Source: Ianthella basta (lineage: Eukaryota > Porifera > Demospongiae > Verongiida > Ianthellidae). From it: a stretch of DNA of 64,000 nucleotides. Position 1 is the stretch's first letter; every line of letters begins with the position of its first letter. Where the stretch lies: positions 2,075,512 to 2,139,511 of the forward strand of contig OZ025874.1 of the NCBI GenBank assembly GCA_964019415.1. The letters are read 5' to 3'. Shown here one piece after another: positions 30,827 through 63,343 of the stretch. Below the pieces are notes generated by a model. It was not told where the DNA came from. It saw nothing but the letters and a program-made list of their open reading frames with translations, and did not search any database. Made by a program: the position numbers and the translations under genes.

Positions 30827-31070
30827 GCCAACAATTGCAGAAACAAATCCAAGGTTCTGATACACACAAAAGACGGTCACCTTCACCTGAAGCTAACTCG
30901 CCATCATTAATTATCTTCAAGTTCAGCCTCAAAGTTATTAACCCTTAAACTTGTAATTTATATTGCTGTTCCTGTGGTGGTCATTCCATGTGCTGCTGTG
31001 GTAGTCAAGAGACTACCCATCTGTCTTCCCCCATGGCCTTTCACTAACATCTGGCAGCATCAGATGTGCA
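30827..31070 (+). pseudogene. CARD-tail/transmembrane exon fragment, frameshifted
   Basis: It begins after GCTCTAG with GQQLQKQIQGSDTHKRRS, matching the end of the CARD-like exon at 2,034, and continues into the transmembrane exon sequence, including CCCCCATGGCCTTTCACTAAC. A small deletion puts the hydrophobic part out of frame, and a fold-back element cuts the exon at CAGATGTGC. It shows that CARD, linker and transmembrane block once formed one continuous exon. Confidence 0.6.
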
Positions 31071-31072
31071 CA

Positions 31073-31173
31073 CGCATAGCTAGCTAGGAGGCAGAGAGCG
31101 AAGCGGCCGCGAAGTAAATTACTTCAGTTGCTTTTCACTCTCTGCCTCCTAGCATAAGGAAGACAGCTATGCG
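31073..31173. mobile_element. Fold-back element with NotI-like centre
   Basis: CGCATAGCTAGCTAGGAGGC at the left is mirrored by GCCTCCTAGC...AGCTATGCG at the right, with GAGAGCGAAGC/GCTTTTCACTCTC continuing the stem. Confidence 0.65.
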
Positions 31174-31573
31174 TTCATTCTATTCAGCTCTAGCCTATAT
31201 TACCCTGCTCTCAAAGCATGCCAAGTTAAAATCTCTGGCTCCTCTTAGCTATAGCTATAATATTACGAAGAAGGGGCGGCCGAAGTACCGAATGCTAGCT
31301 GTGATCATCGTTATGTTACTGTGACTAGACTATAACTACAACAACGCCGCATAATTACAATACTGTCGCCTACAGCTTTTGCCTTACGCTAGGCCGGTGA
31401 CGTCATCTCATGTGACCCTCGGGAAAAATGGTCTATGTATTGATGATCAATAGAAGAACCTATAATTAGGGAAGTTCCCTATCCTTAAGATACTATCAGT
31501 AGGTTATAGGTACTATACCTTAAGCTATAAAGTTAAGCTTGTATAACTTTTACTTTGAACTCTGTTACTCCAG

Positions 31574-31804
31574 TTAATGGCAACAGAAGAGCATCTTTGA
31601 TCTCAGATTCCCCACCCCTATCAACTCGACGACCTGCATGTGTTCTGCTTCTTTTTGCTGTGGTAATCATGGGATCCGGACTACCCATCTGTGTTCCCCC
31701 GTGGCCTTTCACTAACATCTGGCAGCAACAGGTGTGCTGGGAAGGCATGCCTTGGACCTGGGTTACTGGTATGGAAGAAAGTCGACTCTCCACTGCCACT
31801 CCAG
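31574..31804 (+). CDS. Transmembrane plus Trp/Cys exon, phase 1-1
   Basis: 231 nt between acceptor ACTCCAG and donor CCAG|GTACGTG. It encodes NGNRRASLISDSPPLSTRR (basic), a hydrophobic segment ACVLLLFAVVIMGSGL, then LPICVPPWPFTNIWQQQVCW, EGMPWTW and an acidic Ser/Thr tail. The basic residues before and acidic residues after the hydrophobic segment favour N-in/C-out topology. It precedes the stalk exon at 32,691. Confidence 0.65.
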
Positions 31805-32690
31805 GTACGTGCATGTTTGCAGCCAGTATCAGTGTAGATTGATAGGCATACATGTATAGACTATATGTATGCGATCACTTAAACACATAATGTTGTCAAG
31901 AGTATGTATCATAATGAAAGACGTATTGGTGGATTTACCATCCTATTACACCAGTGTTTGTGTCACAGTTGACTGGTTGTAGCTATATGCATGTTTTCCC
32001 ATAATGACACATCATACATAGCGCAAAGCGCCCGTCTTCTCCAATTCATCACATTTACTTGTAGAAGTATCTTTAGAGTTATAGCTGTATACAGTGGGAA
32101 ATAGTGGAGCTAGGCTTTTGGCAAGTTAACATTTGGCAGATTCCACATCCTAAACACCGATGATGTCATTGAGTATGGCAATGATGGAGAACCGTTTGCT
32201 CTGGTTTCATCTCATTTTAGCAGTGTACCTTCATATCTTAGATCTCTCTCCAGGTGTCACTCTCTCATTGGTGGTGTAGCTGATGTATGTGCTGTGAGTC
32301 GCACTGTGCTTCTTTCAGGCCTTAACTTGCGTCCTCATCCAGCACAAGAGCTCGCCCTCTCAAGGCACATGTTCATTCATCGGCTCTGTCTCCATCTTGA
32401 GAAAGGACCACACTAGAGCACAGCTACTTTACTTGTGGATACTGAAGTCCATATCAATTGCAAACATTGCATACACATTGACTGCCTTGTAAATGAGCCG
32501 CCTACACATCATACTTCAGTACAGGGTGGTAATATTGGTAAGGAATTAAGTTTGGCGATTTTCAGAAATCCACCAAACTGCCAAAGTTAAAACCCTGCCA
32601 ATAGTTCCCACTATATACGGTATATAATTAATTTGTAAAATATGGCTATACACATAATTGTTTCATATTTTGCTTGTGTTGAATTAATAG

Positions 32691-32774
32691 ATGAGTCATT
32701 GAGTACAAGTTCTGTGGTTTTCACTACCGACCACCCGCAGCCAACGTTGACTGACAGTAGATTGGACGCTGAAG
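32691..32774 (+). CDS. Ser/Thr-rich stalk exon R3, 84 nt
   Basis: Acceptor GAATTAATAG, donor GAAG|GTTTGT, phase 1-1. It encodes DESLSTSSVVFTTDHPQPTL and ends LDAEG. It lies between the transmembrane exon at 31,574 and the next start exon at 34,320, so it belongs to a separate, earlier unit with no AIG1 exon directly after it. Confidence 0.65.
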
Positions 32775-34269
32775 GTTTGTCTTGTGTGTTCACCTACGTA
32801 AGTGTTGTGGTTAGGTGATGTAATGGGTAAGAAGTATTTGTGAGGGTTGCCAGTAGAGATCGCACTTTAGCGCATTTGGCCAATTTTGACATTTTTCACT
32901 ATTTAGGTAGCTACAAGTGTCCTTCGTACATTCAACAAGTTTAAAGTGAATCCGCACTTCTATCGGCGAGTAATCGTCAGTCAGGCAACCCCCCTCGCCA
33001 TTATATTTACATACGCAGGATACAAAATAGCAATAAAAATGGTGGTGTGTTGTTTACTCCTGTCTAGTTTCGTCTCATTTTCCACTGTAATGTTGTTTGT
33101 CAATGCTATAACAGCAGTCATCGTGTAGTATAGTGGTAATGAGCCAGTTAGTAGATGGATACTGACATTTCTAGCTATGAGAAGCCCATTCAGATAACTG
33201 CAAGTGGACTTGGAATACCGTACTGATCAGTTGTTAAGTGCATGTGATTATAGCTCTGGCAGGAAAAAATATGCGCCTAATAAAGCATATGCGCTTAACA
33301 AACGAATGGGTCAAGAAATTATAATGATATGCAAATGTCATATTAAGATGGCCGCCGCGTAGCGCAGTAACTGAGTTCTCATTCAAGCATTATTTTTACT
33401 ACCTTATAGTCATTATTACACTGCAGGCGAGTGGCTAGGTTACCAGGGAGTCCTTTTATGTGCCTAATAGAAGGGGTGAACCCTTGAAATCACTATGCGC
33501 CTAACAGTTAGGGTGAAAATTGGTAAAGAAATGTGCGCTTAACAGAGGTTATGCGCTTATAAGAGGGGTGCACTTAACAACTGATCAGTACGGTATACCA
33601 ATTCAAGGCCGATTTCTACAATCAAAAGGTACACATTGCATTGTGAATTATGTAAATGGCATGCATAATTGCTGCGCAGTTGTTCAAACTCCGCGACAGT
33701 ATCATTGAATGTTCCTTGAAAGTTGCCAATTTTCGGCGGCCATTTTCCAAAAATGCTGATTCGTGCTAAGGTGCGATTTCTACTGGCGACGCTCACATTT
33801 GCTTATGATTAATTGTTTACATAATGTGAAAAGCTTTAGAGCTGAAATTACTAATTATTGGTATCTGGATTTCACTGTGAAACCAGTTTGCTTAAATCAC
33901 TTTCCAAAGTCAGCCTCAAAAAGTTTCCTTGTGATGTCTAAAATTATCAGCAAAGGAATTTCTTTACTATCCAAGTGACCGCCAAGGTGTCAATTATACA
34001 AGAGCTGAACCATTGCAACTGAACTGGGCTGGTTGTACTGTAGTGGTTGCAAGGGCCTGCATGGGCCAAGCTGATTAAAGTAAACAAATGAATATGCAAG
34101 TGTGAATTTTACTCTCTCTGGATTTGGACCACTTCAAATCGCATTAGTGCTGGCACACATTGTGAACACCCCCTATATAGTCCTGTGTGCCAGACCTCCC
34201 TCCGGAAGGGTCTGGTATTATTGCGTACATTAACTTCAAGCTGTGTATGTAGGACAAGATCCATCCTGG
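32775..34269. other. Spacer between units, no supported gene
   Basis: It contains interspersed inverted motifs (CCGTACTGATCAGTTGTTAA at 33,220 and its complement near 33,577-33,595) that bound a TIR-like block of about 0.38 kb with ATGCGC(C/T)TAA repeats inside. No ORF with recognisable content was seen. Confidence 0.4.
33213..33600. mobile_element. TIR-like block, about 0.39 kb
   Basis: GGAATACCGTACTGATCAGTTGTTAAG at the left end is mirrored by CTTAACAACTGATCAGTACGGTATACC at the right. Inside are repeated ATGCGC(C/T)TAA motifs in both orientations. No coding capacity was seen. Target duplication not determined. Confidence 0.6.
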
Positions 34270-34303
34270 CCAATCAGATTTGCTGAGTGCTATTATGACG
34301 TCA
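34270..34303 (+). promoter_or_regulatory. CCAAT box and CRE palindrome upstream of a start exon
   Basis: CCAAT at 34,270-34,274 and a perfect TGACGTCA at 34,296-34,303 lie 17 bases before the ATG at 34,320. CRE sites bind CREB/ATF factors. In the two degenerate paralogues (1,732 and 35,215) the palindrome has become TGACATCA and the ATG is gone. Confidence 0.5.
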
Positions 34304-34319
34304 GCCTAAATTTAGAGAC

Positions 34320-34404
34320 ATGGCACTGGCTCGCTTGAAGGATATCATTGGACGTACTGCGACTTCACTGGGGTACACTGTAACAGCAGAGCAAGCCATA
34401 CAAG
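34320..34404 (+). CDS. Start exon of the modular gene, phase-1 donor
   Basis: The ATG begins 28 codons (MALARLKDIIGRTATSLGYT...EQAIQ) and one extra base before the donor CAAG|GTATGA. Joined in phase 1 to the CARD-like exon (AG AAA ATT...), it would supply the first helix of a death-fold: LKDIIGRTATSLGYTVTAEQ is amphipathic. It sits just left of the border where the duplication starts (34,471). In copy A only a version without ATG survives. Confidence 0.5.
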
Positions 34405-35516
34405 GTATGAATGATACAATAAACCATGAGTGCGTGAAATATCACCTCCTTGCGAGTTTACTCTCATACCAACATGTTTGTTTAGCCCCAAATGGTCCCT
34501 TTTCGCAAATCCGGTCACATCTTATTATAATAGACGTAACACACATTTTCGTTGTTCGGGATATGCTCCTTCAATTCTGGACAGAACATCACGAAACTTG
34601 GTAGGATTACAAAGAGGCATACTGTGAATAGCCTTGCTGAGCCAAAGTTTGGTTTAAGGACGTTCTGTCGGAGTTCTTGCCACTTTTACGGTCGCCGCCA
34701 TATCTAAGAGATAGGGAAAAGAACATATTTCCTCCTCCTTCAATTTTCCACCAATCTTTGCCAAACTTGGAAGAGTATACAACGGAAATATGGGGGGTGA
34801 CCTAAGGTGGGTAGTGTCTTGGTCGTTGAACTCCTTAACCTGAAATGGATTAACATAAGTTAATTCTGTACGCACGGAGTTTTACAGAGCAAGTCTACGG
34901 AATGCTCCCAATTAAATGGACGGTTTTGATTGGTTAAACGCTCAAATTACGAACTATAGACTAGGAACCCACCCAAAGGGTGGGCATTCAGCTAGTTTTA
35001 GTAAACAAATGAATATACAAGTGTGAATGTTAACCCTAACTGGTTTTAGACCACTTCAAATCAGGTTAATGTTGGCACACATTGTGAACACCCCCTATAA
35101 AATTATAGTCTTGCGTCCCAGACCCCCTGTGGAAAGGTCTGGTATTGTTGCGTACACCAACTTGTGTCTAGGACAAGATCGTATCCTGGCCAATCAGATT
35201 TGCTGATTGCTATATGACATCAGCTTAAATTTAGAGACATTGTTTGACGTGCTGCGGCTTTACTCGGGCACACTCTAAAAGCAGAGCAATTAAGAATGAG
35301 CCGTACAAGCAAAACAAAGTGAATTCGTGTACTCAAGAGTAGATAAGAGATGAGAGTACACAACCACGTATGCCCGCCTGTAACAGCATTTTTCTAAAGT
35401 GACACAGCAAAACATCACACGTTGGCATGGCAACATATCATTTATTTTGATGTAATGGCAATAGCTGCGTAGCTACGTAAAGTGACACCTGCAGCAGACA
35501 GAATGAGTTCTAACAG

Positions 35517-35810
35517 AGAAAATTGAGCTTGAAATTCGATTACAAGATGCGCAAACGGCACGGGGGACACTTTATGACCACTTAGAGAGTGATTGCACAC
35601 TTCAGCAGTTAGAGAATCTGGCCGAGGTGCTGGTGGGTGTCGATAGAGGCTTTGGCACAACAAGGGAAGTTGGCCAAGAACTACAGAAACGAATCCAAGG
35701 TTCTGATGCGCACAAAAGAAGGTCACCTTTACCTGAGGCTAACTCACCATCATTATCTTCAATCTGGGTTACCAGTATGGACGAAAGTGGACTCTCCACA
35801 GTCACTCCAG
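35517..35810 (+). CDS. CARD-like exon, phase 1-1 (copy B)
   Basis: Identical in all the features described for 2,034-2,327, including acceptor TTCTAACAG, donor CCAG|GTATATG and the missing transmembrane part. It follows the intact start exon at 34,320, so in this unit a chain start exon, CARD-like exon, stalk exons (37,701; 37,949), Cys exon (38,269), AIG1 exon (46,479) is fully open in phase 1. This chain has no transmembrane block and would give a soluble protein. Confidence 0.6.
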
Positions 35811-37700
35811 GTATATGTATATGTTTGCAGCCAGTACTATACCATGGTAGATTGATAGGCATACATAGACTATATGTGGTTTCATGGGTATATGCATAAT
35901 GTTGTCAAGAGCATGAATGAAAGAAGGATCACTGAATTGACCAGCCTATTACACCAGTATTGGTGTCACAGTTGACTGGTTGTAGCTATGTTTCTGCCCA
36001 TAGTGACACTGTGACATCATACATAGCACAAAGTGTCTCCTCTTCTCACATTCATCACATTTACTTGTACAAGAATCTTTAGAGCTATATGTACTGTACA
36101 GTGGGAAATATAGGCAGAAATATAATTTGGCAGATTTGTCATGAAGGGGTTCTGGCAGGTTTTAAATCTGACAGATTCTGCATCCTAAGCACTGATAACA
36201 TCACAGAAAATGCCGACAATGGAGCATCGTTGGCTCTGGTTTCATGTCATTTCAGCAGCATACCTTCATTTAATATATTATTGGAGACATTAAGATCTCT
36301 CTCTCATTGGTGGTGTAGCTGATGTAGGTACTGTGACTTGCACAGTGCTTCTTTCAGGCCTTAACTAGTGTCCTCATGCAGCACAAGAGCTCACCCTCTC
36401 AATGCACATGTTCATTCACTTGCTCTGTCTTAGCACACTAGAGCACGGCTACTTTACTCTGTACGTAGTTACTGAAGTCCATATCAATTGCAAACATTAT
36501 GTACACGTTGACTGCCTTGTAACTAAGCTGCCTACACATCATACTTCGGTACACAGGCAGAAATATTGATGAGGAATTAAATTTGGCGGTTTTTGAAATC
36601 TGCCAATCTGCCAAATAATTATTTAAACCCTGTCAATATTTCCCGCTATATACAATTTATAGTTATATTATGGCCGCAAGGGCATTATCTAATTTAACCA
36701 CGAGGGCGCAATGCACCCAAGTGATTAAATAGATTAATGCCCAACCATGCCATAATATAACTGGCTTCTTGTTTTTCGAATGAGAATGGTTTGCATCATC
36801 GAAGAAATCAAGCTACAACGTCGTTTCCTAGGTACCGATGGCAGACACTTTTAAAATCATGAGTATATTGCGAAACGAAGGCACTGTGTGAAAAGGAAGC
36901 AATTAGTGATGATGCAGGACCGAGTAGCTCCAAGAAGCCTGCTTCTTTGCTGAACATTGAACGTTTCATTGCCAAGCGCATAGCTGACCAGATCAGAAGG
37001 AATGCACAAGAGCTCAGAAGGAGTCTTCTGTAGAAGAGGCACTGTTCTTGTTTTCACCTCAACCAAAGGAACTTAGTAGCTAGCTACGTAGTTTTACCAG
37101 AAAAGAGGCTCCACAAAGGGTGTTTGGGTAGCAACACAGCCACTGATTTCAAGGTAGTTGCACATGCCAGGCCTTACCAAGTTACCTGATTTTGCTGTAA
37201 TAAAATTTGCATGGGCCCAAATGTCTAGCTAGCTAGTCCCATATGTAGCTAGCTACAAGGAAATTAGGAATGCAGAGTGAACTTCACGGGAATGTGGTCT
37301 ATCATGGTGTTGAGTTACTGTTGCTTGTTTCTGTGCTTTTTCTGCTGGCCATTCCTAAATCCCTTTTAATTCTAAAGGAATTTTTATACACTAGTTTGTA
37401 CAGTTTTTGCATATCCAAAGGACTGTGGCTACATCAGATTAATACCAGTGCTGACTAATACCCCTTTGTTAAATTATAGATGAAGATTGTGCAGAACATC
37501 GAGCACAGTTATGCCACTCTAGATAAACCAGCTGCTGTGTTACCTTAACAGTATACCGGCACAACAAAATGGTGGCATTGGGGTATCTTACCGTATTGTC
37601 CCTAATTATTCGGCAGAATAAAACACAGAGTTGGCACTTAGGTTGGCACACATTGTGAACACTCCCATATACGTAGCTATTGCATATTTTCTGTATGCAG

Positions 37701-37784
37701 ATGAGTCATCGAGTACAAGTTCTGTGGCTTTCACTACCGGCAACCCACAGCCAACGTTGTCTAACAGTGTGTTGGATGCTGAAG
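37701..37784 (+). CDS. Ser/Thr-rich stalk exon R4, 84 nt
   Basis: Acceptor GTATGCAG, donor GAAG|GTTTGT, phase 1-1. Counterpart of 4,817-4,900 with a few replacements (DESSSTSSVAFTT at the start). Confidence 0.7.
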
Positions 37785-37948
37785 GTTTGTTTTGCATGTT
37801 GCCTATGCATGTCGCCTAAGTGTTGTGCATATAATGAGGGATATACTGTATATAACAGGCCTTTACTTGGGCTTTCGAGCTCTAGAGTTAAAATTCTTCT
37901 TTGTATAACTGTGGCTAGCTCTATTGCATATTTTGCTTGTGCACGTAG

Positions 37949-38020
37949 ATACACCATTGAGTACAAGTTCTGCGGCTACCACTACTGCTACCAATCACCC
38001 AGAGCCAACAAACACTGAAG
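37949..38020 (+). CDS. Ser/Thr-rich stalk exon R5, 72 nt
   Basis: Acceptor GCACGTAG, donor GAAG|GTTTGT, phase 1-1. It encodes DTPLSTSSAATTTATNHPEP and ends NTEG. It is two codons longer than copy A (5,046-5,111). Confidence 0.7.
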
Positions 38021-38268
38021 GTTTGTATTGCTTGTTCACCAAGCTATTTGTGCACAGGTATGAGGATTCATGCTATCAGTTCTTGCTTCCATCTTGTAAC
38101 ATGGATGATATGAACATATCATGGACCTTTGTTGGCACTCTGTTCCTTCATTCAATCCTCTGTCAAACTACCTGTATAGTGCTGATAATGCCTGCACCTC
38201 CAATTAGAACTGTGTACAAGCTGGGCTGAATTTCTTGTTCGCCACTATAATGGTCTATGTAGGTACAG

Positions 38269-38364
38269 CAAATGCTAGTGACCCATGTGTGGGTCTAACT
38301 GGAATTCAATCTTTCCACTGTGTGTACCTCAGTAGAGCCATCTCTTGCAGTTCCGTCAACAGAG
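38269..38364 (+). CDS. Small Cys exon, intact copy, phase 1-1
   Basis: 96 nt between acceptor GGTACAG and donor AGAG|GTAATT, encoding 32 residues with three cysteines (SDPCVGLTG, FHCVYLSRAISC). The copy in unit A lost two bases and is out of frame. Function unknown; the cysteines could form disulphides if extracellular. Confidence 0.5.
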
Positions 38365-40737
38365 GTAATTCAGATGCAGAATGTCAGTATTCTAGTAGAC
38401 ATTTTTGGGGCTCGCTTCGCTCACCCCTTTATCAATCAGTAGGTAGCTTGACTCAACGCTTTGGGCGGGGCTTATTTCTATTGGTCTGTTCGTTTGCTTC
38501 TACCACACCGTAACTATGCTATTTGTGCAATGTCCACTTCCCCTGTGTCGTATATATGCCAGCCAAATATCATTTATACCAGTACACATTCATTATACAT
38601 GCATTGCTGTTGCACTATCAGACATTTTATACACACAACACACACTGTAGTGTATTTGGGTCTTGGAATGAAAGATTTGCCCAGTTACAGTTAGCGCTGC
38701 CGCTGAGCCATCGGCAATGCAAAAGGCCTAACTGCCAAGCAAGCACAGCTTCAGCTAGCTAAGGCCAGGCAACACCAGTGAGCATGCAGTCAGGCAGAAA
38801 CTGAAGCGCAGACACAGATTCGGCTCGAAGTCCACAGCATCCTGCTGAGTTGGCTTATCTATCCGTAGCTCCCACTTTGTCCCTACTCCCATGGCCCTTC
38901 CCACTCCTTCCTCCATCTGTATCTCCCACTCCTCCCATGTATATACCTAGAGTAACTGTGTGCACCATAATGTCTTGCTTTCAAGGAACTCCTAACTCCT
39001 GACCCACATGCAGATAAGGGCCCTTGTGTGCTCATCCATTGTCCTCTTCCCTCCCTAGCTCTTACAAGTCTGTTTACGCTCATCTTGCAGCCTCTCCAGC
39101 TCTTTAACACTCACGCATGCGCACATGGCTTGTGTTCATGCACTATGGCTACAACTCATTTGGCTTGCTCAGGCTCGCCCCCACGATGCAATGCATCTGC
39201 CCAGTCCATTATGAGCTGCTTTGTACATTAGCATAAATTTTGTGTACATAACTATCATGGATTGAGGCAACCATGAAATTTCTCTGTACAAAATGTCTGT
39301 AACCTAACGTTAATGTGGAGAGACTCTGAGGCTGTATAATCTTTGGTATAGATGGGGCATGGTCCATGCAACACCTTGACATTGGCCCAATCCGGCCACC
39401 TGATAGTACATAGTATGCATGTCCCAGTGCTGAGGTGGCTGCTTCACATGAATCGGGATCCACTGCCCACATGTGAGTGTGCTCACACAACTGCTGGTTC
39501 ATGAGGCATCTGCTTGTCTGTCCAACAAAGTGACACCTAGGGCAGCTAGCCCATCTTACACCAAAGACTTTTCATCAAGTCTATCCACATTAGGTCACAG
39601 ACTATATAGCCAGGCTACTAAACTAATACATAGGATCAATGCCTTAGATTTGCAATTCTTTACTTTCAAGTAGACTACCAACCCTAGGCCAACTCCTGCT
39701 CAAATTAATTTACTTGTAGGTGTTAGTTCAACTAGTAGCTATTCCGTGTCGAGACGTCTTGTTCGCCACATTCTCGTCGCTCATGTCAGCGAATACCCCT
39801 TCACGACCCCCGAACTTGGTGACCATACACCATATCAACCTCAATCCATGACCATCAGGTGCATATTCATGCGAACCATTCAGCTGAGCCGTCTAAATGG
39901 GAACATTCAGCACAAAGCACTCGAGGCTGCTGGTGCAACACCTTTTTGCCTATCTTTTTCAATGTATTAACCTGCCAACAGTGATGACATGATATGCAAT
40001 TATGACGTACTGCATTCCTTAACGCTTATATGCAACTGGTCTATTGCATTCCTGAGCGTGACCATACATACATACAAATGCTAGTCAAGACCATGCAGAT
40101 TCAGCTTATGATTCAGATTATGCTTGGCAATTAAAGAGCTCTGAGACTCTGACCACTGCACTTCTTCCCTCTCTGTAATCCTGCTATATCTGAACATCAA
40201 TACATGAGCTCCCAGAAATGTGAGACTGAAATTAAACATCCCTTATGCATCTTCAGTGAAGTATGTGGTTCAGTAGCTTCTATAGAGCTGAGACACAACA
40301 ACACAACAATGTACATTTAAACACTGAATGAAAGCCATACCCAGTTTGTGTGTCAATTGCTAGGTACAGAGACACCATCCCTACACAGACGGATAAATAT
40401 GTGTGAATGACTATTAGGATTATTGGGCATTTTTTATGCATCAAGCCACCACTTGTACATGATTGGCTGGCAATGACGCTGATGATGTTAAATCACGTCA
40501 TTGCTCGAAATACAGAGGGAGATTCGTGCAGGTTGAACAAAAATACAATAAAAGACTTGGCTAGACTACTCCCTGCGAGTTCTCTGCACCTAGATGCAGT
40601 ACACATCCACCATAGTGGCATAAAAGAGCTATCTGGTCCCACGATTGTTATCATATGATAACGTCATAGATCAAAGGCAGCGACACGCAGGTAAACAGGT
40701 TACTGCAGTGGCAATCACGTAAGCACCCTTAACACCT
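38365..40737. other. Intron/spacer of copy B, no supported gene
   Basis: Counterpart of 5,455-8,686 without the 0.86 kb insertion. The frame 39,746-39,970 parallels 6,842-7,066 but has no domain. Confidence 0.4.
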
Positions 40738-40838
40738 CCATATACGGAAGGTGGTGTGGGAGCAAAACACTTACCAGCAGTGCTGGTAAGCTTGCAGAAG
40801 TGCATGGTAAGCGTTTTGCTCACACGCCGCCTTCCATA
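40738..40838. mobile_element. Left part of the fold-back MITE split by the gypsy element
   Basis: Counterpart of 8,687-8,792. The right arm resumes at 45,463 (CATATATGGCTACTG). Confidence 0.7.
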
Positions 40839-46478: not shown

Positions 46479-47803
46479 GTGTGGAAGTGGTGAAAACAGA
46501 CATGAATCTTACAGGAGAAGAGCTGCATGCCCTTCAGACTGTTAGTAGTGATGATACTGTGTGGCAAATGGTTGGTGTGACCGGAGTGGGAAAGAGCTTG
46601 TTAGGGAACTTCTTGCTTGAAAAGGATAAGTTCAAGGTCAAAGGTTCAGGTGTTGCAGGCTCTGTGACTGATAAAGTTCAAGTGGGCTGCTCTGTGCTGA
46701 ACAGCCAGCGATTGTGCATCGTGGATACTCCTGGCTGCTTTGATACTCGGCGCGGGAGAATGCAGAATGAAGAAGCTGAGAACTTGGCAAATGATCTAGC
46801 CCATTTGGCTGTAGATCTCAGCAAAACTATTCTGATGGCTCGGCATGGCATTCACGCTTTCTTGGTGGTGGTTCGAGCTGACGTAACAGAATTGGTTAGC
46901 ACCACAGTGCTGTTGGACCTGTTTGGCATTATTGGTAACTTCTGGAACCACACCATTGTGGTGTTCACACATGGAAAGAGGTTTGACGAAACAAGTGAGG
47001 ATAAGAAACACACTGCACTGGAGGCAACGCTAAACAGTCCCACCAATTGCCCTGATGACTGGAAGACCCTCATTGAGAAGGCTGGCAATCGGTATGTGAT
47101 TGTTGAGTCGAAGGAGTGGCGAGATGACAAGGAATACCACAAGAGAAAGGTGAAAGAATTTATAAAGCACTCTTCTGCTATTGTTTCTTCTCATGGCCCA
47201 TACAATGATGCATTGCTTTCTTTGGTCCGGGTTCACATTGAGAATGCCAAGCTTGAATTACGCCATGATTTCAGTAACGTGGACAGTCCAGAGGCACAGG
47301 TTGCAGCACTGCAGATTGCATTTCCAAACATCAAACGCTCGCTTCACACGATTATTAGCATCAAGCTGGCTGGAGGGGTTGATGTTGAAGCAAAGGAAGA
47401 AGAATTGTTGGAAGCTCGCAGGCGAAATGACCAGTTGCATCAGCAGGTCCTGAAGGAGCAAGCAGAAAAGCGCAAGGCTCAGGAAGCAGAAGTCAGAGCA
47501 AGGGAGGAACAAAGAGTGGCCGAGGAACAAGCAAGAGTGGAACGTGAGGCAGCAGAAAAGGCTAGAAGGGAATTGGAAGAGTACCTAAAGAAGCCTACAT
47601 TTGCAGAAAGGGTTGTAGAGACACGTATTACCCGTGAAGGATTCTATAAGTGGGAGTATGTGTACACTGCTGAGGCTGTAGATGTGGCTACAGAGATAAC
47701 AGCTAAGGCAAGGAATTACCAATCCAAAGGTGGGGCCAAGGAACATGCTAGAATTAATCTCAAGGCCAAGCTACTGGACAGAGGCATCATCCGCAAAGAT
47801 TGA
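46479..47803 (+). CDS. AIG1/GIMAP-family GTPase, large 3' exon (unit B)
   Basis: Same length (1,325 nt) and structure as 9,605-10,929: acceptor CATGCAG|GT in phase 1, P-loop GVTGVGKS, DTPG, THGK, coiled coil and the conserved C-terminal domain, ending at TGA 47,801-47,803. Replacements relative to unit A cluster around the switch-I-like region (LEKDKFKVKGSGVAGSVTDK against REKDEFKVKRPGVAGSVTDT) and in the coiled coil. All nucleotide-binding motifs are unchanged, so both copies look functional. The internal ATG at 46,502 offers an alternative start. Confidence 0.88.
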
Positions 47804-52807: not shown

Positions 52808-52844
<37 letters not shown>

Positions 52845-53430: not shown

Positions 53431-53514
53431 ATGAATCATTGATTACAAGTTCTGTGGCTATCACTACTGATCACACTCAGCCAACGTTACCTGACAGCGG
53501 AGTGGACACTGAAG
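53431..53514 (+). CDS. Ser/Thr-rich stalk exon R6, 84 nt
   Basis: Acceptor GAATTGTAG, donor GAAG|GTTTGT, phase 1-1. Encodes DESLITSSVAITTDHTQPTL and ends VDTEG. Confidence 0.68.
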
Positions 53515-53963: not shown

Positions 53964-54047
53964 ATGAGTCATTGAGTACAACTTCTGTGGCTGTCACTAC
54001 TGACCACCCTCAGCCAACGTTGCCTAGCAGTGGAGTGGGCACTGAAG
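53964..54047 (+). CDS. Ser/Thr-rich stalk exon R7, 84 nt
   Basis: Acceptor GTTTACAG, donor GAAG|GTTTGT, phase 1-1. Encodes DESLSTTSVAVTTDHPQPTL and ends VGTEG. Confidence 0.68.
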
Positions 54048-54191
54048 GTTTGTCTTGCGTTCACTTAAGTGTTGTGGATATAATGAGGGATATATAATTG
54101 GTGACAGGTCTTTGCCTGGGCTGTGAAGCTGTAGAGTTAAAATTACATAATTATGGCTATATGTTGCATATTTTTCTTAATATGCACATAG

Positions 54192-54275
54192 ATACACCAT
54201 TGAGTACAAGTTCTGTGGCTACCACTGTCGATCACCCACAGCCAACGTTGACTAGCACTGGGGTGGACACTGAAG
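54192..54275 (+). CDS. Ser/Thr-rich stalk exon R8, 84 nt
   Basis: Acceptor TGCACATAG, donor GAAG|GTTTGT, phase 1-1. Encodes DTPLSTSSVATTVDHPQPTL and ends VDTEG. This is the last stalk exon before the AIG1 exon of unit C. Confidence 0.68.
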
Positions 54276-54384
54276 GTTTGTCTTGTTTGTTCACCTAGCT
54301 GTTCATGCATTTGTAGGTGGTGATAATGATTCATGCTATTAATTTCTGCTTCCATCTTGTAACATGCATAATATATGAATGGAT

Positions 54385-54925: not shown

Positions 54926-54983
54926 TGAATGGATCATGGACATCTGTTAGCACTCTGTTCATTCTGCTCTTGGATACATACAG

Positions 54984-56398
54984 ATTTACAGATGGAAAAG
55001 CCAGACGTGAAGCTTACAAGAGAAGAGCTGCATTCCCTTCAGACTGCTAATAAAGATGATCTTGTGTGGATAGAGATTGGTGTGACCGGAGTAGGGAAAA
55101 GCACGTTAGGGAACTTTCTCCTTGGAAAGCATGTGTTTGAGGTTGGGGGTGCCCTTGTTTCTGTGACTGATAAAGCTCAAGTGGGCTGCTCTGTGCTGGA
55201 CGGACTTCGCATGTGCATTGTGGATACTCCTGGCTTTGGCGACACTCATCGCATGGGAACACAGAACACTGAAGCGGAGAACCTGGCCAATGATGCAGCC
55301 CATTTGGTTGTGGAGCTCAGCAAGACCATGCTGATGGCAAGGCATGGAGTTCATGCTTTCTTCGTGGTTGTTCGAGCTGACAGCAGAGAATTGTTTAGCA
55401 CCACAAAGCTGTTGGACCTGCTTGATATTCTGGGCAACTATTGGAACCACACCATTCTAGTGTTCACCCACGGAAAGAAGTTTGACAAGACAAGTGAGGA
55501 TAAGCAATATGAGAAATTTGAGGCAATGTTAAACAGCCCCAGCTGCCCTGAAGTATGGAAGACTCTTGTTGAGAAAGTTAACAAGCGATACGTGATTGTA
55601 GAGCCAGAGGATTGGAAAGATGACAGAGAATATCATGCAAGAAAGGTTAAGGAGCATAAAGAGCACTCCTCTGCCATTGCTGCCACTCATGGTCCATACA
55701 ATGACACATTACATTCCTTGTTAAAAGAATACATTGAGACTGCCAAACTTGAGTTGCACAATGAGTTCGAAGATATGGACAGCCCAGAGGCCCAGGTTGC
55801 TGCACTGCAGGTTGCCTTTCAGAACGTCACGGCCATGCTGTACAAGCTCATTCGCATTAAACTTGCAGGGGGAGTTGACAATGAGCTGTTACAAGAGATG
55901 GCTAAAACAAAAGAAGAAGAACTTTTAGAAGTTCGCAGGCAAAGAGACCAGTTATATCAGCAGTTCTTGAAAGAGCAGGAAGAAAAGCGCAAGGCTCAGA
56001 AGCAGTTCTTGAAAGAGCAGGAAGAAAAGCGCAAGGCTCAGAAGCAGTTCTTGAAAGAGCAGGAAGAAAAGCGCAGGGCTCAGGAAGCAGAGGATAGAGC
56101 AAAGGAGGCACAAAGAGTGGTCGAGGAACAAGCGAGGGTAGCACGTGAGGCGGAGGAAAAGGCTAGAAGGGAATTGGAGGAGTATCTAAAGAAGCCTACA
56201 TTTGCAGAAAGAGTAGTAGAAACACGCATTACCCGTAAAGGATTCCATAAGTGGAAGTATAAGTACACTGCTGAGGCTGTAGATGTGGCTACAGGGATAA
56301 CAGCTAAGGCTAAGAAAAAATCCAGAAGTGGTGCCAAGGAGCATGCTAGGAATAATCTCAAGGCCATTCTATTGGAGAGAGGCATTATCCGTAATTAA
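54984..56398 (+). CDS. AIG1/GIMAP-family GTPase, large 3' exon (unit C)
   Basis: Acceptor ATACAG|AT (phase 1), stop TAA at 56,396-56,398, 471 codons. P-loop GVTGVGKS, DTPGFGDTH (closer to the usual DTPG(L/F) box than units A and B), AIG1 box and THGK are all present. It is clearly related to but much more diverged than the A/B pair (about 70% by eye). The coiled coil is longer because a 14-residue unit QFLKEQEEKRKAQK occurs three times in tandem (55,965-56,085); A and B have one. The C-terminal domain (RITRKGFHKWKYKYTAEAVD, SGAKEHARNNLKAILLERGI) is well conserved. The internal ATG (MEKPDVKLTREEL) is an alternative start. Three stalk exons precede it. Confidence 0.88.
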
Positions 56399-56883
56399 CC
56401 TTAATCATGATTGATTAGTAGGAGTGACAAACGTAATGCAGCTAATAGTTTCATGGTGGTATGGGTAGGCTTTCATTTGCTGCACATTTGCAAGCATAAT
56501 AACTATAGCACCTTGTGAATTACATAACGGTATTATGTAGTTATTATATTGTACATGTGAGTGCATTACAATATGTTACTGGAACATAAATTACCTGGTC
56601 ATGCACAGCAAAACTGCATGTACGACTTGATTCTTCATGCATATGCATAATGTACTTATAATAAATGTCTCTAGCACAGGCAGAAGAAGATGGCTGAATT
56701 GCTGCATGGAAATTCGCAAGTAAATGTATAGACCAGTTGCATACACTGGTCTTCATGGAACAAAGAAAAGTGTAGGCCAGGATTGAAGCAGAGAGACAGG
56801 CTAGCAAACAAGCAAGGCTGCATGGCATGTACATGTGAGGAAGCAAAGAAACCTAGAAGGGAATGAAGGAGTGTGTTTAGTGC

Positions 56884-56906
56884 AATTGCACTGTGTGTGC
56901 TTGTGC

Positions 56907-56975
<69 letters not shown>

Positions 56976-56990
56976 TGTGTGTGTGTGCAT
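56884..56990. repeat. (GT)n microsatellite
   Basis: Almost pure GT from 56,907 to 56,966 and onward. No coding significance. Confidence 0.95.
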
Positions 56991-57089
56991 TCAAATGGCA
57001 TGACACCACATGACTACTCTTGTGTGGCCACATCCTTTCCTTCACGGTTGAACAACACTGAAGTGGAGGCTAGGCCCTGGTCACATGAG

Positions 57090-58539
57090 ACTACCACAAT
57101 GAAGGAGAGTGTACTGTGAAGGTGACATTGAATGGGGCACAATGTGGAGGGTACAGTGTTAGTCACTGGAGACATTCACCGAACCATCCTAAGTTTTGCT
57201 TGGCTAACCAGGGGATAATTATTGGTTGACCAATCAACAAGGCCAATTTCCCTCCCTCCCCAGCCTTGTTAGCATGAGCTTGTTATCATTTTCTAGTCTA
57301 GTCATAAACTACTCTGATCCATACAGATGTGGCTGTGACATTCCATCACTCGCTGTGGCCAAGAGGTCCAAATTCTCACCATGCTCTGGATGGCGCAGTC
57401 AATTACAACATGCAAGCATGGTTGATGCTCTTCCCACTAGTACAACCTCAACCAAAATATGATTAGGCTCCCCGGAAGGAAAGTGGCTGCGGTTGCTGTG
57501 CCATTGAAGATACTGACACAATGCCCGCACCCAAATAGCACTTATTCTGGGACCACCATTAAGCACCCTTTTGGTTTTTATGTGTTACATGTGTTTGCGT
57601 ATCACCTTCTACATCTGAATGAAGGGCAGGAGGTATCGGATCCTCTCACTTCTTGAGCCTCAAAGCCTGGAGAAATTGGGCAGCCTGCATTGTAGCCATC
57701 TTAATCATATGGTGATTCCCTGGCGCTGCTTAATTTCTGTTCCAATTTCCATAGCAATCCTGCAGAACCGCCCACCGATTGCTAGGGGTGTCACCGTTGC
57801 AGCAGACCAATGTGTCATCGGTGATCTCCAGCTCTAAGCACCCTCCCCTTGCACATCCACTATCATGGGAATCACATGTGAGCCGTGGAGGGAGGACAAT
57901 TAACTGCTGGCAGGTAGAACTCGGCTGAAGGATGCTTTGCACTGGTGGGATACAACCTAGTTCATCTATTTTCATTACCTAATGGAGCAATATTCCCAAT
58001 ACTTCAAGTACCATGCTCAAGGTAGTGTAGACGGGGTATAGAAGGGGATAGGGGAGTAGCTCTATTTTCACTTTACTACAGAAGATTACTACAGATTCCA
58101 GAATGGTTGCCCAAATAACAACTAGTAAATCACAAACAAAAGGTACATGGCAAACGGCGTGACATCATTGTGTAAAAAGTTATGTCTACTGTATCATTTT
58201 AGTCACATGTGCCACTCAGGACTAGCACACTAGATATCACACTGCCACACTATCTGCCATATACCATTCACAATCTACCATTAGCCATTAGGACAACCTT
58301 TCTGAAATAGACTGTAAGTCACAGAGAGTATGCTTACATGAAATTGTTTATGCAACACCAAAATGGCTGCCTCACACAGTGGTACAGTAAACACCATCTT
58401 TCTAGAGTAACAGCAACAACGTCAGCAGTAGCTCTAACTCATCCTTTAGCACAGCTCAGTATTAGTTGTCAGAATCCTCTGATAGGGGCTTCCTGAATTG
58501 CTCAGAAACCCCCTTCTTAAATGTCTGAAAAATACTGCA

Positions 58540-58605
<66 letters not shown>

Positions 58606-59180
58606 GGTTGCACATACAGAATTGCTCGTTCCACTTCAGAATGCTCTGGTGCTGTTCAGCATACAACTCTGCAGGGAAGATGGCAGATGGTCAGTGGCAG
58701 TGTAAGCACGCAGTCAATATGAAGCAGATGCATTCAGCAAAGGACAACACAAAACAGTGAGTGTCCCAAGGCGAACCGAAATAGTTATTCTCCATGACAC
58801 ATGATGAAACTGGACTTGTGGTTTTATGACAGTGTACACTGAGCAGTCCCTATAGCTATGCCAATGTATCTAAAAATGTTAACTGACAGAGAAAAACAGC
58901 TGGGTGCATTTTGTCATGCTATCCAACCTTTATTGTACATAATAACCCTACACTGTTTTAAGGGGTAGGGGGAGGGGGGGCTATAGTGCATGTAAACACC
59001 TTTGGGATTGGAGGATCCATGATATACACCACAGAGTCTCTTCTACGGCCATCTGGTGACTACCACTACTAAAGCTGTCCAGAATCCTAATTTTTCTAGA
59101 GAGTGGACTCACAGTTTTAAATGTACGTGGATAGATAGAGTGCTGTAGCTACATGCATGCATACAAAGAACATTAGCTAC
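57090..59180. repeat. Return to duplication homology (copy B of 13,440-15,636)
   Basis: From GTACTGTGAAGGTGACATTG onward the sequence follows copy A again, with a (GT)n run at 58,542-58,600 and one AACAACGTC unit at 58,416. No gene on either strand until the CARD exon. Confidence 0.75.
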
Positions 59181-60248
59181 CTTGTAAATCATTGACAATT
59201 GGGTGAAGAAGTTGGTACTCCCCCAGAATGCTGAGAAAATCTTGGAATCCTTGCACACCAGTGACAGTGATGGCGTTCTTAACACTCTGTAGTATACGTG
59301 AGTTCTTCGCTTCTTTGACTTCCTGGAAGTCTCTAGCCTCGTTCCCAGGCCGTCCGAGTTAATTAGCGCGGGGGCGGAAAGGACGGCCTGGGCACCACTG
59401 TTCCTGCGCCCCCCCAAAACTGGGGGGGCGCCGGAAAACTTCGTATATGTTTCCGTAATCTACATGTAGAAGAGTATAGGTGTCCATGAAATGGACAGCT
59501 GGGAAACGCTCAGAACAGTCGGAACCGGTCCACTTTGGGTAGAAAATTACCGACGTTAGTCAGTTTGCCGAGATGCTTCGATATGTGGTGCCAGTGATTT
59601 TCAAACACTGCGCACGGGACTGACGGGAGCAAAGCAGTCTCGCTAACGTCGTCTGGATCTAATACGGCTCGCGGTGAGGTTGTGCGCCGATCATTGCATA
59701 CATGTGAGCCTGTCTGACTCTCCATCTCGTTCCAAAATAGCATTTCTCTGCTATTGTAAGCTTAGCCATTCCTGCTAGCTGCTACGTATGCGAGTGCAAA
59801 AGGATATCCACAGCAAGGAAGCTTCCAGAAGCCGCGCTCTTCGCGACAGCCTTGCCGTACGTCTTCTCTAAGGCAAGGCAGGCAAATAACTAGAGCTGAA
59901 GCTCTTACGAGCTAGTTATTTGCTGGAAAATCTTTGCGCATGCGCAAACAGTGGTTCCCAGGCCTTTCCGCCCCCGCGCTAATTAACATGGACGGCCTGG
60001 GAACGAGGCTAGGAAGTCTCTCACTGCCTCCAGGTCGTTATCGCTAAGTAGATGCTTTTGATGAAGCTTTAACGCCACTGACAAACTATCCATTCCACTA
60101 CACAGCTTTCCAGTCCTTTCTATAACGGCGTTCCTGGCAGCTAGGCTACAAGGATCTGTGATGAAGGAGCGCTGTTGTGTGTACCCAACAACATGGGGAA
60201 TGGGTTGGCTCTGAGCCATTAACGGATTCACAAACGACTCGACCACCG
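59181..60248 (-). pseudogene. CARD-like exon, copy B, split by a TIR transposon
   Basis: Acceptor CCTCAG|CGG at 60,248 and donor CAAG|GTAGC at 59,181, both phase 1. Without the insertion and its 9-bp duplication the exon is 381 nt, in frame. The N-terminal part is intact (VESFVNPLMAQSQPIPHVVG, DPCSLAARNAVIERTGKLCS, SLSVALKLHQKHLLSDNDLE) and is cut after EAVRDF. The remaining helices (VKEAKNSRILQSVKNAI, GFQDFLSILGEYQ-like) continue at 59,324 and below. Translation through the insertion adds LASFPGRPC and a stop, so the product would lack the second half of the domain. Confidence 0.65.
59334..60011. mobile_element. 678-bp TIR transposon with 9-bp target duplication in the CARD exon
   Basis: TAGCCTCGTTCCCAGGCCGT at the left is the exact complement of the right end ACGGCCTGGGAACGAGGCTA; the TIRs reach about 65 bp through the AATTAGCGCGGGGGCGGAAA region. 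Flanks are GGAAGTCTC (59,325-59,333 and 60,012-60,020). An inner palindrome (GCAAATAACTAG...CTAGTTATTTGC) and CCCCCCCAAAACTGGGGGGG hairpin lie inside. A minus-strand frame at 59,743-59,510 is not recognisable. A non-autonomous, Mutator-like type is likely. Confidence 0.82.
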
Positions 60249-60468
60249 CTGAGGCTGTAGCTGTCCCATTGATTTATGCGTCCTCCAGCCAAATTAACAG
60301 TCACTGCCTACACCCATACACGAAATAGAGGACACGTTCGATCTTTCTTGAGCATTGACGGCCATTTCCCATAGAAGATTATAAGATGACGCAATCGAAA
60401 CTTGCGGGAATAGTGGAAGGGAAAGTCCGTTATCATCGCTGGCCGACAACTAGATTAACAAGGTGACC

Positions 60469-60493
60469 ATGGACGGAGATGAAATGACTTCTG
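60469..60493 (+). CDS. 25-nt start exon, phase-1 donor
   Basis: ATGGACGGAGATGAAATGAC...TCTG|GTAAGC: eight codons plus one base. It is conserved in copy A (17,115-17,139, first ATG lost) and in a diverged copy at 61,210. The CARD-like minus-strand exon begins only 220 bp away on the other strand, so a shared bidirectional promoter is possible. Confidence 0.45.
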
Positions 60494-61209
60494 GTAAGCA
60501 ATTGTCCCGTCTCACACGCTAGACTATCTTTATATTTACCATTGACCACGTATAAGAGTTGAACTAGAGAAGTTGAGGAGTAATAAATTGGGTCCCATGG
60601 CCTTCGGGAGCGTTGTGCCAATACCATAGACCCTACAAGGGTCAATGGTAATACGCAGGCTCCTATTTATAAAAACGAGCTAAGGCTGAAATAGTGATTT
60701 TGCCTCCGAAATGATTCGGCTATGAGACCGGAAGTTTCCAATAGCTACATAGATTTAACCCTAATTAGACTTCTGTAGCTCAGCTATGTGTGGTAATGTT
60801 TGTAGTGGGAGGAGCGCAACAAATGTTGTTGTAGTCTCTTGTAACTGATTCCTCTTTTTGTTGGTAAGGATGTTGGTAAGATGGGCACATGCCATCATTG
60901 TTACAAAAGAAACGATTGAGAACAGTTGGTAGCGGCCATTTTCTGAAATTATCCGCCCAGGGCGTTCCAGGCCGAGACATGAAAACATAATTAGAAAGTC
61001 ACGTTCCACGACTTCTGGAGATTGCTAGGCAACTCTGGAGCGGAAGGTTCGCCATTACAATATTAGTTAGCGCTTCGCCTTGGCAGTTACCATTTTCAAA
61101 TAATTAATTTCATTCAATTGTATGGTCTTTCTCTCTCTCTTGCTGGCCGACTAGCAAGGCTGACTAGCAATCTTCTATGGCATGGGCATGCCATAGAAGA
61201 TCTGTGCTC
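60494..61209. other. Intron or promoter region, no supported exon
   Basis: Contains ATGGCATGGGCATGCCAT-type palindromes near 61,178-61,195 and short conserved pieces shared with 61,240-61,600 (GGAGGAG(C/G)GCAACAAATGT), which shows that the start-exon region was itself duplicated in tandem. Confidence 0.4.
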
Positions 61210-61234
61210 ATGCGGAGATATAACATGGCATCTG
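61210..61234 (+). CDS. 25-nt start exon, second copy, phase-1 donor
   Basis: ATGCGGAGATATAACATGGC...TCTG|GTAAGT. Same length and phase as 60,469-60,493. The next exon downstream is the death-fold exon at 61,623, which it can join in frame (G|AT AAT TCA). Confidence 0.5.
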
Positions 61235-61622
61235 GTAAGTTATTGTCCCATCTTACGCACCCATACCATCTTTATTGGCGGCCAAGCATAAATAGTTGAA
61301 TAAGCTTAATGTTCAGTGGTCACTGGTAGCTAACTAATTTGTCACATTCCCGAGCGATATGCGCTCCTAGTCACACAACAAGTCACTTACCCCATAGGCA
61401 TTGAAGATGGACAGCTCGTTTCCAAACATTCCACGCTCCGAAATGACTCAATCAGCGCTACTGTTGAGAATTTTTGAGGCCGTAGTTTTTGTACGTAGAT
61501 TCAGCATCTGTAGCTCAGCTAACTAGCTATGTGTGATATTATTTGTAATGGGAGGAGGGCAACAAATGTCCTTGTAACCTCTAGTAACTGATTCCTTTAT
61601 TGTGAATACTAAAACTCTACAG

Positions 61623-62000
61623 ATAATTCAGTGGTTGCAATTCTACAAGAATTCAGAGCTGACATTTTGAAGGATGTGAATGTCGAAGTGTGTGCTCCAG
61701 AGGTGAGACGTGAAGAGGTAATAGCAGAGAGCACAGACACTGACATTAATCAAGCAAGATCTGTGAAAAGAGCAAATGGAATACTTTATGACTACCTACG
61801 TCAGAATTGTACGTTGGATCAGATAGTGATGCTGTCCAGAGTACTGATGGATGTTGATAATGCCTATAGAAGAACAAGGACACTTGGTCAGCGATTGCAT
61901 GCAAGAACTCAGGGCCTTGGAGATGGTGGCACATATCAGCAAGAAAGCCAAAATGGATCACAAATCCACCAATCACAGCCCTAGAATGAAACAAGCGCAG
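61623..62000 (+). pseudogene. Death-fold (CARD-like) exon of unit D with in-frame TAG
   Basis: Acceptor CTCTACAG and donor GCGCAG|GTGAGG bound 378 nt, 126 codons, phase 1-1. It encodes NSVVAILQEFRADILKDVNV, ANGILYDYLRQNCTLDQIVM and LGQRLHARTQGLGDGG, an all-helical pattern matching the exon at 2,034-2,327. A TAG at 61,982-61,984, six codons before the donor, interrupts an otherwise open symmetric exon. Either this is a recent nonsense change, or the exon is used as a short terminal exon giving a soluble death-fold protein. Confidence 0.55.
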
Positions 62001-62151
62001 GTGAGGATTGCTTCATGCATGAGGCAATAACGTTTCTGTAGCATCATGTCCCATGCAATACAATGGTGTTAGCACCTTGCACATTGAGAGGTGTTAACAT
62101 TGTTGCATTGGGCACCCCATGTATTGTACATGTAAGTGTGTATGTGTGTGT

Positions 62152-62170
62152 GGGGGGGGGGGGGGGGGGG
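62152..62170. repeat. Homopolymer of 19 G
   Basis: Follows a short GT run; a likely site of sequencing-length error. Confidence 0.9.
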
Positions 62171-62294
62171 CTGCATGATGAAACCATGTATTGATGATCA
62201 ATAGAAGATCCTATAATTAGGGAAGTTCCCTATCCTTAAGATAAGCAATAAAGTTAAGCTTCTATTACTGTTACTTTGTACTCTGTTACTCTAG

Positions 62295-62543
62295 GTAATA
62301 GCAACAGAAGAGCATCTCTGATCTTCTCAGATTCCCAACCCCCTTTAAAGCTACAGCGTACGCATGTTCTGCTTGTTTTTGCTGTTATCATTCCTTGTGC
62401 TGCTGTGATAATCAATGGGATACCCATCTGTCTACCTCCATGGCCTTTCACTAACATTTGGCAGCGTCAGATGTGCTGGGAAGGCATGCCTTGGACCTGG
62501 GATACCAGTACGGAAGAATGTGAACTCTCCACAGCCACTCCAG
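62295..62543 (+). CDS. Transmembrane plus Trp/Cys exon of unit D, phase 1-1
   Basis: Acceptor TACTCTAG, donor CCAG|GTATATG, 249 nt. Encodes NSNRRASLIFSDSQPPLKLQ, a clear hydrophobic span HVLLVFAVIIPCAAVII, then ICLPPWPFTNIWQRQMCW, EGMPWTW and an acidic tail (DTSTEECELSTATPG). The best-preserved example of this exon. Positive charges before the span and acidic residues after it favour N-terminus inside. No stalk exon was found between it and the AIG1 fragment at 63,156. Confidence 0.65.
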
Positions 62544-63155
62544 GTATATGCAGAGTGATAGGCATACTTATAATTATAGACTATGTGTGGGACATAATGT
62601 TGTCAAGAGCATGTATCATAATGAAAGAAGTATTGCTGGATTTACCATTCTATTACATTAGTGTTTGTGTCACAGTTGGTCATTTGTAGCTATATGCATG
62701 TTTTTCCCTTAATGAAACATTATACATAGCGCAAATGCCCCCTCTTCTCAAATTCATCACATTTACTTGTAGAAGAATCTTTAGAGCTATAGCTGTATAC
62801 AGTGGAAAATGTTAGCAGGCATGAAATTTGGCTGATTTGCTATAAAAACTAGGCTTTTGGCAAGTTAAAATTTAGCAGATTCTGCATCCTAAATACTGGT
62901 GATGTCGTTGAATATGGAACTTTTCGCTCTGGTTTCATCTCATGTTAGCAGTGTACTTTAATTCATATCTTAGTTCTCTCTTTAGGCATCACTCTCTCAT
63001 TGGTGGTTTAGCTGATGTATGTGCTGTGAGTCGCACTGTGCACGGTGTCAATTATGCAAGAGCCAAACCATTTCAGCTGAACTGGGCTGGTTGTGCCATA
63101 TTGGTTGCAGGGGCCAGCTTGATTTAAGTAAACAAATGAATGTACAAGTGTGAAT
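62544..63155. other. Intron remnant, no exon found
   Basis: Contains GTGCTGTGAGTCGCACTGTG and AGTAAACAAATGAATGTACAAGTG pieces shared with the other units. The stalk exons expected here are absent. Confidence 0.45.
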
Positions 63156-63343
63156 GCGGAAAGAGTAGTAGAGGCACGCATTATCCGTGAAGGATTCTAT
63201 AAGTGGAAGTATGCTGAGGCTGTAGATGTGGCTACAGGAATAAAGGCTGAGGCTAAGAATTACGAGTCCAAAAGTGGTGCTAAGGAACATGCAAGGATCT
63301 CAAGGCCATTTTACTGGATAGAGGCATCATCCGCAAAGATTGA
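63156..63343 (+). pseudogene. Fragment of a fourth AIG1 exon (C-terminal domain only)
   Basis: Begins abruptly after GTGTGAAT with the conserved C-terminal domain (ERVVEARIIREGFYKWKYAE, SKSGAKEHARI), nine bases shorter in the middle, then a four-base deletion shifts the frame; the old TGA is at 63,341-63,343. No GTPase part exists upstream. It is a deletion relic showing that unit D once had the same 3' exon. Confidence 0.75.

Follow-up and report, generated by a model that had tools for sequence, protein, structure and literature searches.

Exons for a CARD-like fold, a transmembrane segment, Ser/Thr-rich stalks and an AIG1 GTPase share phase-1 borders in a tandem array of the sponge Ianthella basta

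Among invertebrates, GIMAP-type (AIG1) GTPases are patchily distributed, and what they do is uncertain. In Biomphalaria glabrata (papers are cited here and below for parts of their text), proteins with a CARD, an AIG1 domain and a coiled coil have been described, the CARD being alternatively included, together with transmembrane (TM) AIG1 proteins whose GTPase is predicted on either side of the membrane (PMC7053062), and lancelets possess proteins made of CARD, AIG1 and HINT (PMC12373286). Among sponges, Amphimedon is listed as lacking AIGs (PMC7053062) and GIMAP-family genes are reported from Dysidea avara (PMC11229196). Here, we analyse 64,000 nucleotides of the sponge Ianthella basta (GCA_964019415.1, contig OZ025874.1, hereafter C7, positions 2075512-2139511; 'the window'), from a genome of 209 Mb in 96 contigs. 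The window holds part of a tandem array in which exons for a CARD-like fold, a TM segment, Ser/Thr stalks, a small Cys module and an AIG1 GTPase form a kit with uniform phase-1 borders.

The array (C7:2.05-2.45 Mb) contains 15 AIG1 matches, all on the + strand and three of them inside the window, while 119 were found genome-wide (150 of 162 candidates scored). TM exons are concentrated here (18 of 19 genome-wide matches), as are stalk exons (17 of 17, in a search that missed six array copies known from the exon search of the kit over 254 kb, i.e. the window plus neighbouring sequence). The borders AG/AT and G/GTTT (slashes mark exon borders throughout) are kept in 17 of the 18 stalk copies of those 254 kb. 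Counting from the previous AIG1 exon, a TM exon precedes 13 of the 15 array AIG1 exons and the order CARD, TM, stalk precedes seven of the 15, although the underlying match lists give minimum numbers and count partial copies too; in 6/15 units a stalk exon lies 330-885 nt ahead of the AIG1 match. As the kit copies are paralogs, their common phase is inherited and does not represent many independent coincidences.

The full order CARD-TM-stalk-AIG1 was found outside the window only. Units 6, 8 and 15 yielded gene models (Table 1) free of stops, in which every junction is GT-AG and phase 1 and the AIG1 exons keep the phase-1 AG matching the stalk donors; the CARD-TM exon of unit 6 also holds a partial second CARD, and the 56 residues spliced from the two stalk exons of unit 8 are 36% Ser+Thr (45% with Pro). 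A first-pass annotation, made from the letters of the window, had proposed a single death-fold/membrane/Ser-Thr/AIG1 gene; the three models support it in that such a gene can be built, while its start exon was not supported. The segment it had chosen (34320-34404) is a piece of a dispersed repeat (206 genome-wide candidates for 34230-34420, the 40 scored of which are spread over 15 contigs). The first exon of the kit is likely the tiny ATGACTTCTG/gt: across the 254 kb, the + strand has seven occurrences of the pattern ATGAC[AT]TCTGGT and the - strand none, and two further copies of the ATGACTTCTG/gt exon lie farther along. The in-frame exon kit is real, its start exon is unlike the one proposed, and it is incomplete in the window and complete nearby.

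Within the window, the AG/GT borders, phase-1 edges and (for internal exons) lengths divisible by three that had been read from the sequence were recovered for the eight stalk exons, the truncated CARD exons and the Cys exon at 38263-38364, and the AG border and phase-1 edge for the AIG1 3' exons starting at 9605, 46479 and 54984. The junction coordinates hold as well, save that 38263 is as possible a start of the Cys exon as 38269 (both AG, phase 1). The claim of one order recurring in up to four units was not borne out, as the window units are rearranged and none is complete: the two CARD exons ahead of class-A AIG1 exons are missing roughly the initial third of the CARD as well as the entire TM segment, and in unit 3 stalks are the only kit exons ahead of the open AIG1 exon. 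Nor are all window exons intact, since the CARD exon 61623-62000 contains an in-frame TAG (61982) and the Cys exon of unit 1 (5355-5454) has lost two bases. Blocks 33-37 kb apart are 99-100% identical (988-1287/34471-34770 and 9787-10086/46661-46960), marking a segmental duplication.

Table 1. Kit exons of the window and gene models of the array (window positions, unless prefixed with C7)
Feature	Position	Strand	Remarks
CARD-TM exon, 3' part (TM segment)	656..917	+	ends CTCCAG/gtac
Truncated class-A CARD exon without TM, phase 1-1	2034..2327	+	exon search, borders
Ser/Thr stalk exon	4817..4900	+	border check
Ser/Thr stalk exon	5046..5111	+	border check
Small Cys exon, unit 1, 2-nt deletion, broken frame	5355..5454	+	end placed by aligning it to 38263-38364
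AIG1 GTPase + coiled-coil 3' exon, class A	9605..10929	+	gcag/GTGTGG; open to stop
First exon MTS/	17130..17139	+	ATGACTTCTG/gtaagc; closest start of this type ahead of units 2 and 3
CARD-TM exon remnant	30826..31069	+	CARD end 30826-30909, TM 30938-31069
TM exon, 231 nt, phase 1-1	31574..31804	+	hydrophobic run shortened
Ser/Thr stalk exon	32691..32774	+	border check
Start exon of the first-pass annotation	34320..34404	+	dispersed genomic repeat, outside kit
Truncated class-A CARD exon without TM	35517..35810	+	protein identical to 2034-2327
Ser/Thr stalk exon	37701..37784	+	border check
Ser/Thr stalk exon	37949..38020	+	border check
Small Cys exon	38263..38364	+	alternative acceptor gives 38269
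AIG1 GTPase + coiled-coil 3' exon, class A	46479..47803	+	AIG1 E 6.6e-22; PDB GIMAP4, 5, 7
Ser/Thr stalk exon	53431..53514	+	border check
Ser/Thr stalk exon	53964..54047	+	border check
Ser/Thr stalk exon	54192..54275	+	border check
AIG1 GTPase + coiled-coil 3' exon, class B	54984..56398	+	AIG1 E 4.7e-19; acag/AT
First exon MDGDEMTS/G, phase-1 end	60469..60493	+	core ATGACTTCTG at 60484; ATG..CTTCTG/gtaagc
CARD exon class B, 378 nt, phase 1-1	61623..62000	+	acag/AT..GCGCAG/gtga; in-frame TAG 61982-61984
TM/PPWPFTNIW exon, 249 nt, phase 1-1	62295..62543	+	ctag/..CTCCAG/gtat; homology
Unit 6 gene model, 790 residues	C7:2174024-2181842	+	CARD+TM in one 780-nt exon, two stalks, Cys, AIG1
Unit 8 gene model, 712 residues	C7:2211556-2216875	+	first exon, CARD 378 nt, TM 246 nt, two stalks 84 nt, AIG1
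Unit 15 gene model, 688 residues	C7:2442335-2451073	+	

The identity of the GTPase is clear: two window exons score 78.3 and 69.0 bits against PF04548 (cut-off 27), and the closest PDB relatives are GIMAP4 (E 6.4e-8), GTPase Der (5.3e-6, ranking second), GIMAP5 (6.7e-6) and GIMAP7 (2.2e-4). P-loop and DTPG patterns are present in 14 of the 15 array loci (L001 matched DTPG and not the P-loop pattern), and a loose G4 pattern found no match in L017. The three window AIG1 exons are open to their ends, and the ratio of non-synonymous to synonymous substitution rates (dN/dS) across the nine AIG1 copies of the 254 kb is 0.42. The dN/dS rows comprised 9 CARD (11 seen besides the truncated ones), 9/13 TM, 14/18 stalk and 9/9 AIG1 exons, with the Cys exon excluded; broken or partial copies had been removed beforehand, so that the zero stops there are partly a matter of choice. 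The C-terminal 66 residues encoded by the AIG1 exons (such as those ahead of 47803; ..AKEHARxNLKAILLERGIIRKD) are strongly conserved and common to database relatives; they gave no Pfam family above the cut-off and weak PDB matches only. At the protein level, the database relatives P0020, P0021 and P0024 read '..TD' at the expected ag/AT acceptor site.

We are confident that the exon upstream encodes a CARD, as a six-helix death fold with a split first helix, closest to CARDs, is predicted for the class-A relative P0038. Profile searches of PDB gave weak matches only (BCL10, E 0.15-0.4; with a narrower profile BCL10 0.56 and PCNA 1.7), and none of the sequences scanned matched a death-fold Pfam family, the Pfam CARD model being a detection aid rather than a definition. 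The AG acceptor is kept in 11 of 11 CARD exons inspected, although the frame is broken in two of them (near C7:2046 kb and near 2226 kb). CARD-related exons are widespread (at least 120 matches at E 0.001 or less, 150 of 425 candidates scored) on many contigs (C1, C3, C4, C5, C6, C10, C13 and C17 among others), being 51-59% identical on C3 near 2.4-4.2 Mb and at C1 12.43 Mb, and mostly 21-35% elsewhere. The nineteenth TM exon lies on C1, after a first exon (ATGACATCTG/gt) and a CARD exon of the array kind. This paralog (C1:12431094-12434625; L041, 2094-5625) resembles the array genes in its type of first exon, in its CARD and TM exons and in how these are phased and ordered, whereas its TM exon is spliced to a DUF5648 exon (PF18885, E 1.6e-27) where the array has AIG1. 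Since DUF5648 (found at just three genomic sites, each of them on C1) here replaces AIG1, the block of first, CARD and TM exons resembles a 5' module that can be reused, with an exchanged 3' exon.

We read the array, with a probability of roughly 0.53, as a lineage-expanded sponge CARD-AIG1 (GIMAP-like) family encoding an immune signalling GTPase, with membrane-tied isoforms arising through exon inclusion or skipping. What we infer about transcripts, membrane insertion, isoforms and function runs as follows. Each unit would be a gene (one gene per unit is probable) in which the tiny first exon is followed by CARD, TM, Ser/Thr linker, sometimes Cys, and AIG1, and because the borders are phase 1, kit exons could be retained or skipped without a change of frame. 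Assembly of the AIG1/coiled-coil part, driven by GTP, would bring the CARDs together, and these might nucleate a caspase- or BCL10-type CARD complex; the TM segment, if included, would anchor the CARD to the membrane, and the stalk may serve as a linker in the cytosol. With its motifs intact, an AIG1 GTPase should depend on cytosolic GTP. As a working GTPase must face the cytosol, the same gene is expected to give TM-free AIG1 transcripts besides TM transcripts (CARD-TM-linker, possibly with other 3' ends). It is very likely that AIG1 is cytosolic in the main product, and the odds that a single mRNA with CARD, TM, linker and AIG1 exists are even.

Several observations weigh against this reading. 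The best hydrophobic 19-mers (mean hydropathy 2.62 in unit 8, 2.83 in unit 6 and 2.25 in the C1 paralog) are flanked by more Lys+Arg on their N side than on their C side (4 v 1, 2 v 1 and 3 v 2, respectively), from which the CARD is expected inside and AIG1 outside the cytosol, the topology that the first-pass annotation had predicted. No window unit is complete and several array units are degenerate, with AIG1 frames short in 3/15 loci (203, 250 and 254 aa). A protein spanning CARD to AIG1 was not found in a set of 5.8 billion (8000 best candidates scored); the 24 close matches cover 49-63% of the query, and 14 of them, examined individually, start at or just ahead of the AIG1 exon. Distant AIG1 relatives (55-77% identical), whose contigs are partly very short, had no TM or stalk matches. 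In the start-codon survey (14 array copies, L001 being left out as its P-loop pattern failed), seven copies, including all three of the window, have a Met between acceptor and P-loop, and five of the seven without one (L003, L004, L005, L006, L013, L017, L020; L003 and L006 with one Met 2 residues ahead of the P-loop) carry an in-frame Met ahead of the acceptor, which would permit a start without splicing. L013 and L020 (a short frame, 203 aa) are the only copies with none back to the preceding stop; L013, a full-length frame, needs an upstream coding exon and is the one clean case. The topology is most simply reconciled by in-frame skipping: class B would skip its separate TM exon, and class A, with CARD and TM in one exon, would join the first exon straight to a stalk. 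Since the TM segment was lost in frame from the window CARD exons at 2034 and 35517, and stalks are all that unit 3 has ahead of its open AIG1 exon, AIG1 persists there without a TM segment. Of the database proteins, one group is 99-100% identical to loci of this genome; as a second is only 83-94% identical (P0001 and P0004 with AIG1, P0028 with CARD, P0037 with CARD-TM), a related but distinct genome or haplotype seems to carry CARD-TM and AIG1 exons together too.

The in-frame Met of 12/14 copies would also suit two interleaved, co-amplified families, namely a CARD-TM-stalk receptor that has a 3' end of its own and a plain AIG1 gene starting at its own Met or an undetected first exon. We consider this unlikely: the stalk-only unit 3, the C1 paralog (CARD-TM without AIG1) and a Biomphalaria AIG gene giving transcripts with and without CARD (PMC7053062) would fit it, whereas L013, the stalk exons found in the AIG1 array only (with their proximity to AIG1 in six units) and the phase-1 AG of the model AIG1 exons fitting stalk donors argue for joined exons. 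That the full CARD-TM-stalk-AIG1 protein is the sole or main product, with a non-cytosolic GTPase or an inverted topology and the CARD outside, is improbable. The complete frames in three units, the hydrophobic segments with their N-side charge and the Biomphalaria AIG1 domains predicted on either membrane side (PMC7053062) speak for it; the need for cytosolic GTP, with motifs kept in most copies, the dN/dS and the AIG1 exons that stay open in window units without TM speak against it.

It is possible, though we lean the other way, that the array consists mostly of decaying duplicates, in which units 6, 8 and 15 are genes and the window units fragments or pseudogenes, a reading compatible with the others. 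The TAG at 61982, the frameshifted Cys exon, the truncated CARDs, the retroelement-like open reading frames (ORFs) inside introns and the three short AIG1 frames point to decay, and the three open AIG1 exons of the window and the dN/dS of the nine copies speak against it. Also improbable is a combinatorial immune locus of 0.4 Mb, whose transcripts would join exons across neighbouring units and to other 3' ends, as phase-1-compatible exons and numbers of start, CARD, TM, stalk and AIG1 exons that differ from unit to unit would allow; if true, it would endow a sponge with a repertoire of membrane-bound and cytosolic CARD-GTPases.

The - strand of the window has recurrent features of its own. A helical exon (MDSLSVALKLHQKH..; CARD-like by eye, with no Pfam family above the cut-off) or its 5' neighbour (15862-15635, 60093-60013, 59334-59179) lies at most 1.3 kb upstream of six of the seven first exons of the 254 kb, and a coiled-coil/acidic exon (12555-11623, 49474-48446) recurs next to AIG1 exons; some copies of these conserved exons have stops and one is interrupted by an insert. 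Large reverse-transcriptase-like ORFs were recognised by eye at 25201-22829 and 52624-49838, ORFs of the same retroelement-like group occupy ~40-45 kb, in the long intron ahead of the AIG1 exon 46479, and one is gag-like with zinc knuckles (by eye). Elsewhere in the assembly, we take contig C96 to be mitochondrial (cox1 in code 4, TGA = Trp; four tRNA genes in 4.3 kb), with the presumed order nad3-trnR-nad4L-cox1-cox2-trnK-atp8; code 4 together with several mitochondrial tRNAs suits a sponge rather than a cnidarian or bilaterian.

A sponge array with CARD, TM and AIG1 on uniform phase-1 exons would show how, in an animal lineage that branched early, exon shuffling adds signalling domains to immune GTPases, and the CARD-to-GTPase link is directly testable by long-read RNA. 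The first-pass annotation knew this architecture from no GIMAP family, which is only partly right: CARD-AIG1 and membrane-AIG1 proteins are each known from other animals (PMC7053062, PMC12373286), and for the full combination of CARD+TM+Ser/Thr+AIG1 no report was found in the open-licence PMC literature. Like vertebrate GIMAPs (GIMAP4, 5 and 7), which match in PDB by sequence, the array genes have an AIG1 domain, but vertebrate members are not known to have a CARD or an N-terminal TM segment. Some of them carry C-terminal anchors. The Dysidea avara GIMAP/IAN genes are likewise sponge GIMAP-type genes, and are microbe-responsive, with no domain architecture given in the cited part of that study (PMC11229196). 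With the lancelet CARD+AIG1(+HINT) proteins the array shares an N-terminal CARD fused to AIG1 (here in gene models only); those proteins form an expanded, dispensable family and differ in their C-terminal HINT, with no TM or Ser/Thr linker described in the cited part of that work (PMC12373286). Biomphalaria AIGs come close, with AIG1 plus coiled coil in tandem arrays and, as here, an N-terminal CARD in some and one to three TM segments in others, whereas neither CARD, TM, Ser/Thr linker and AIG1 together nor a phase-1 stalk exon kit is described in the cited part of that account (PMC7053062), and in the sponge all four can be joined in frame in the models of three array units.

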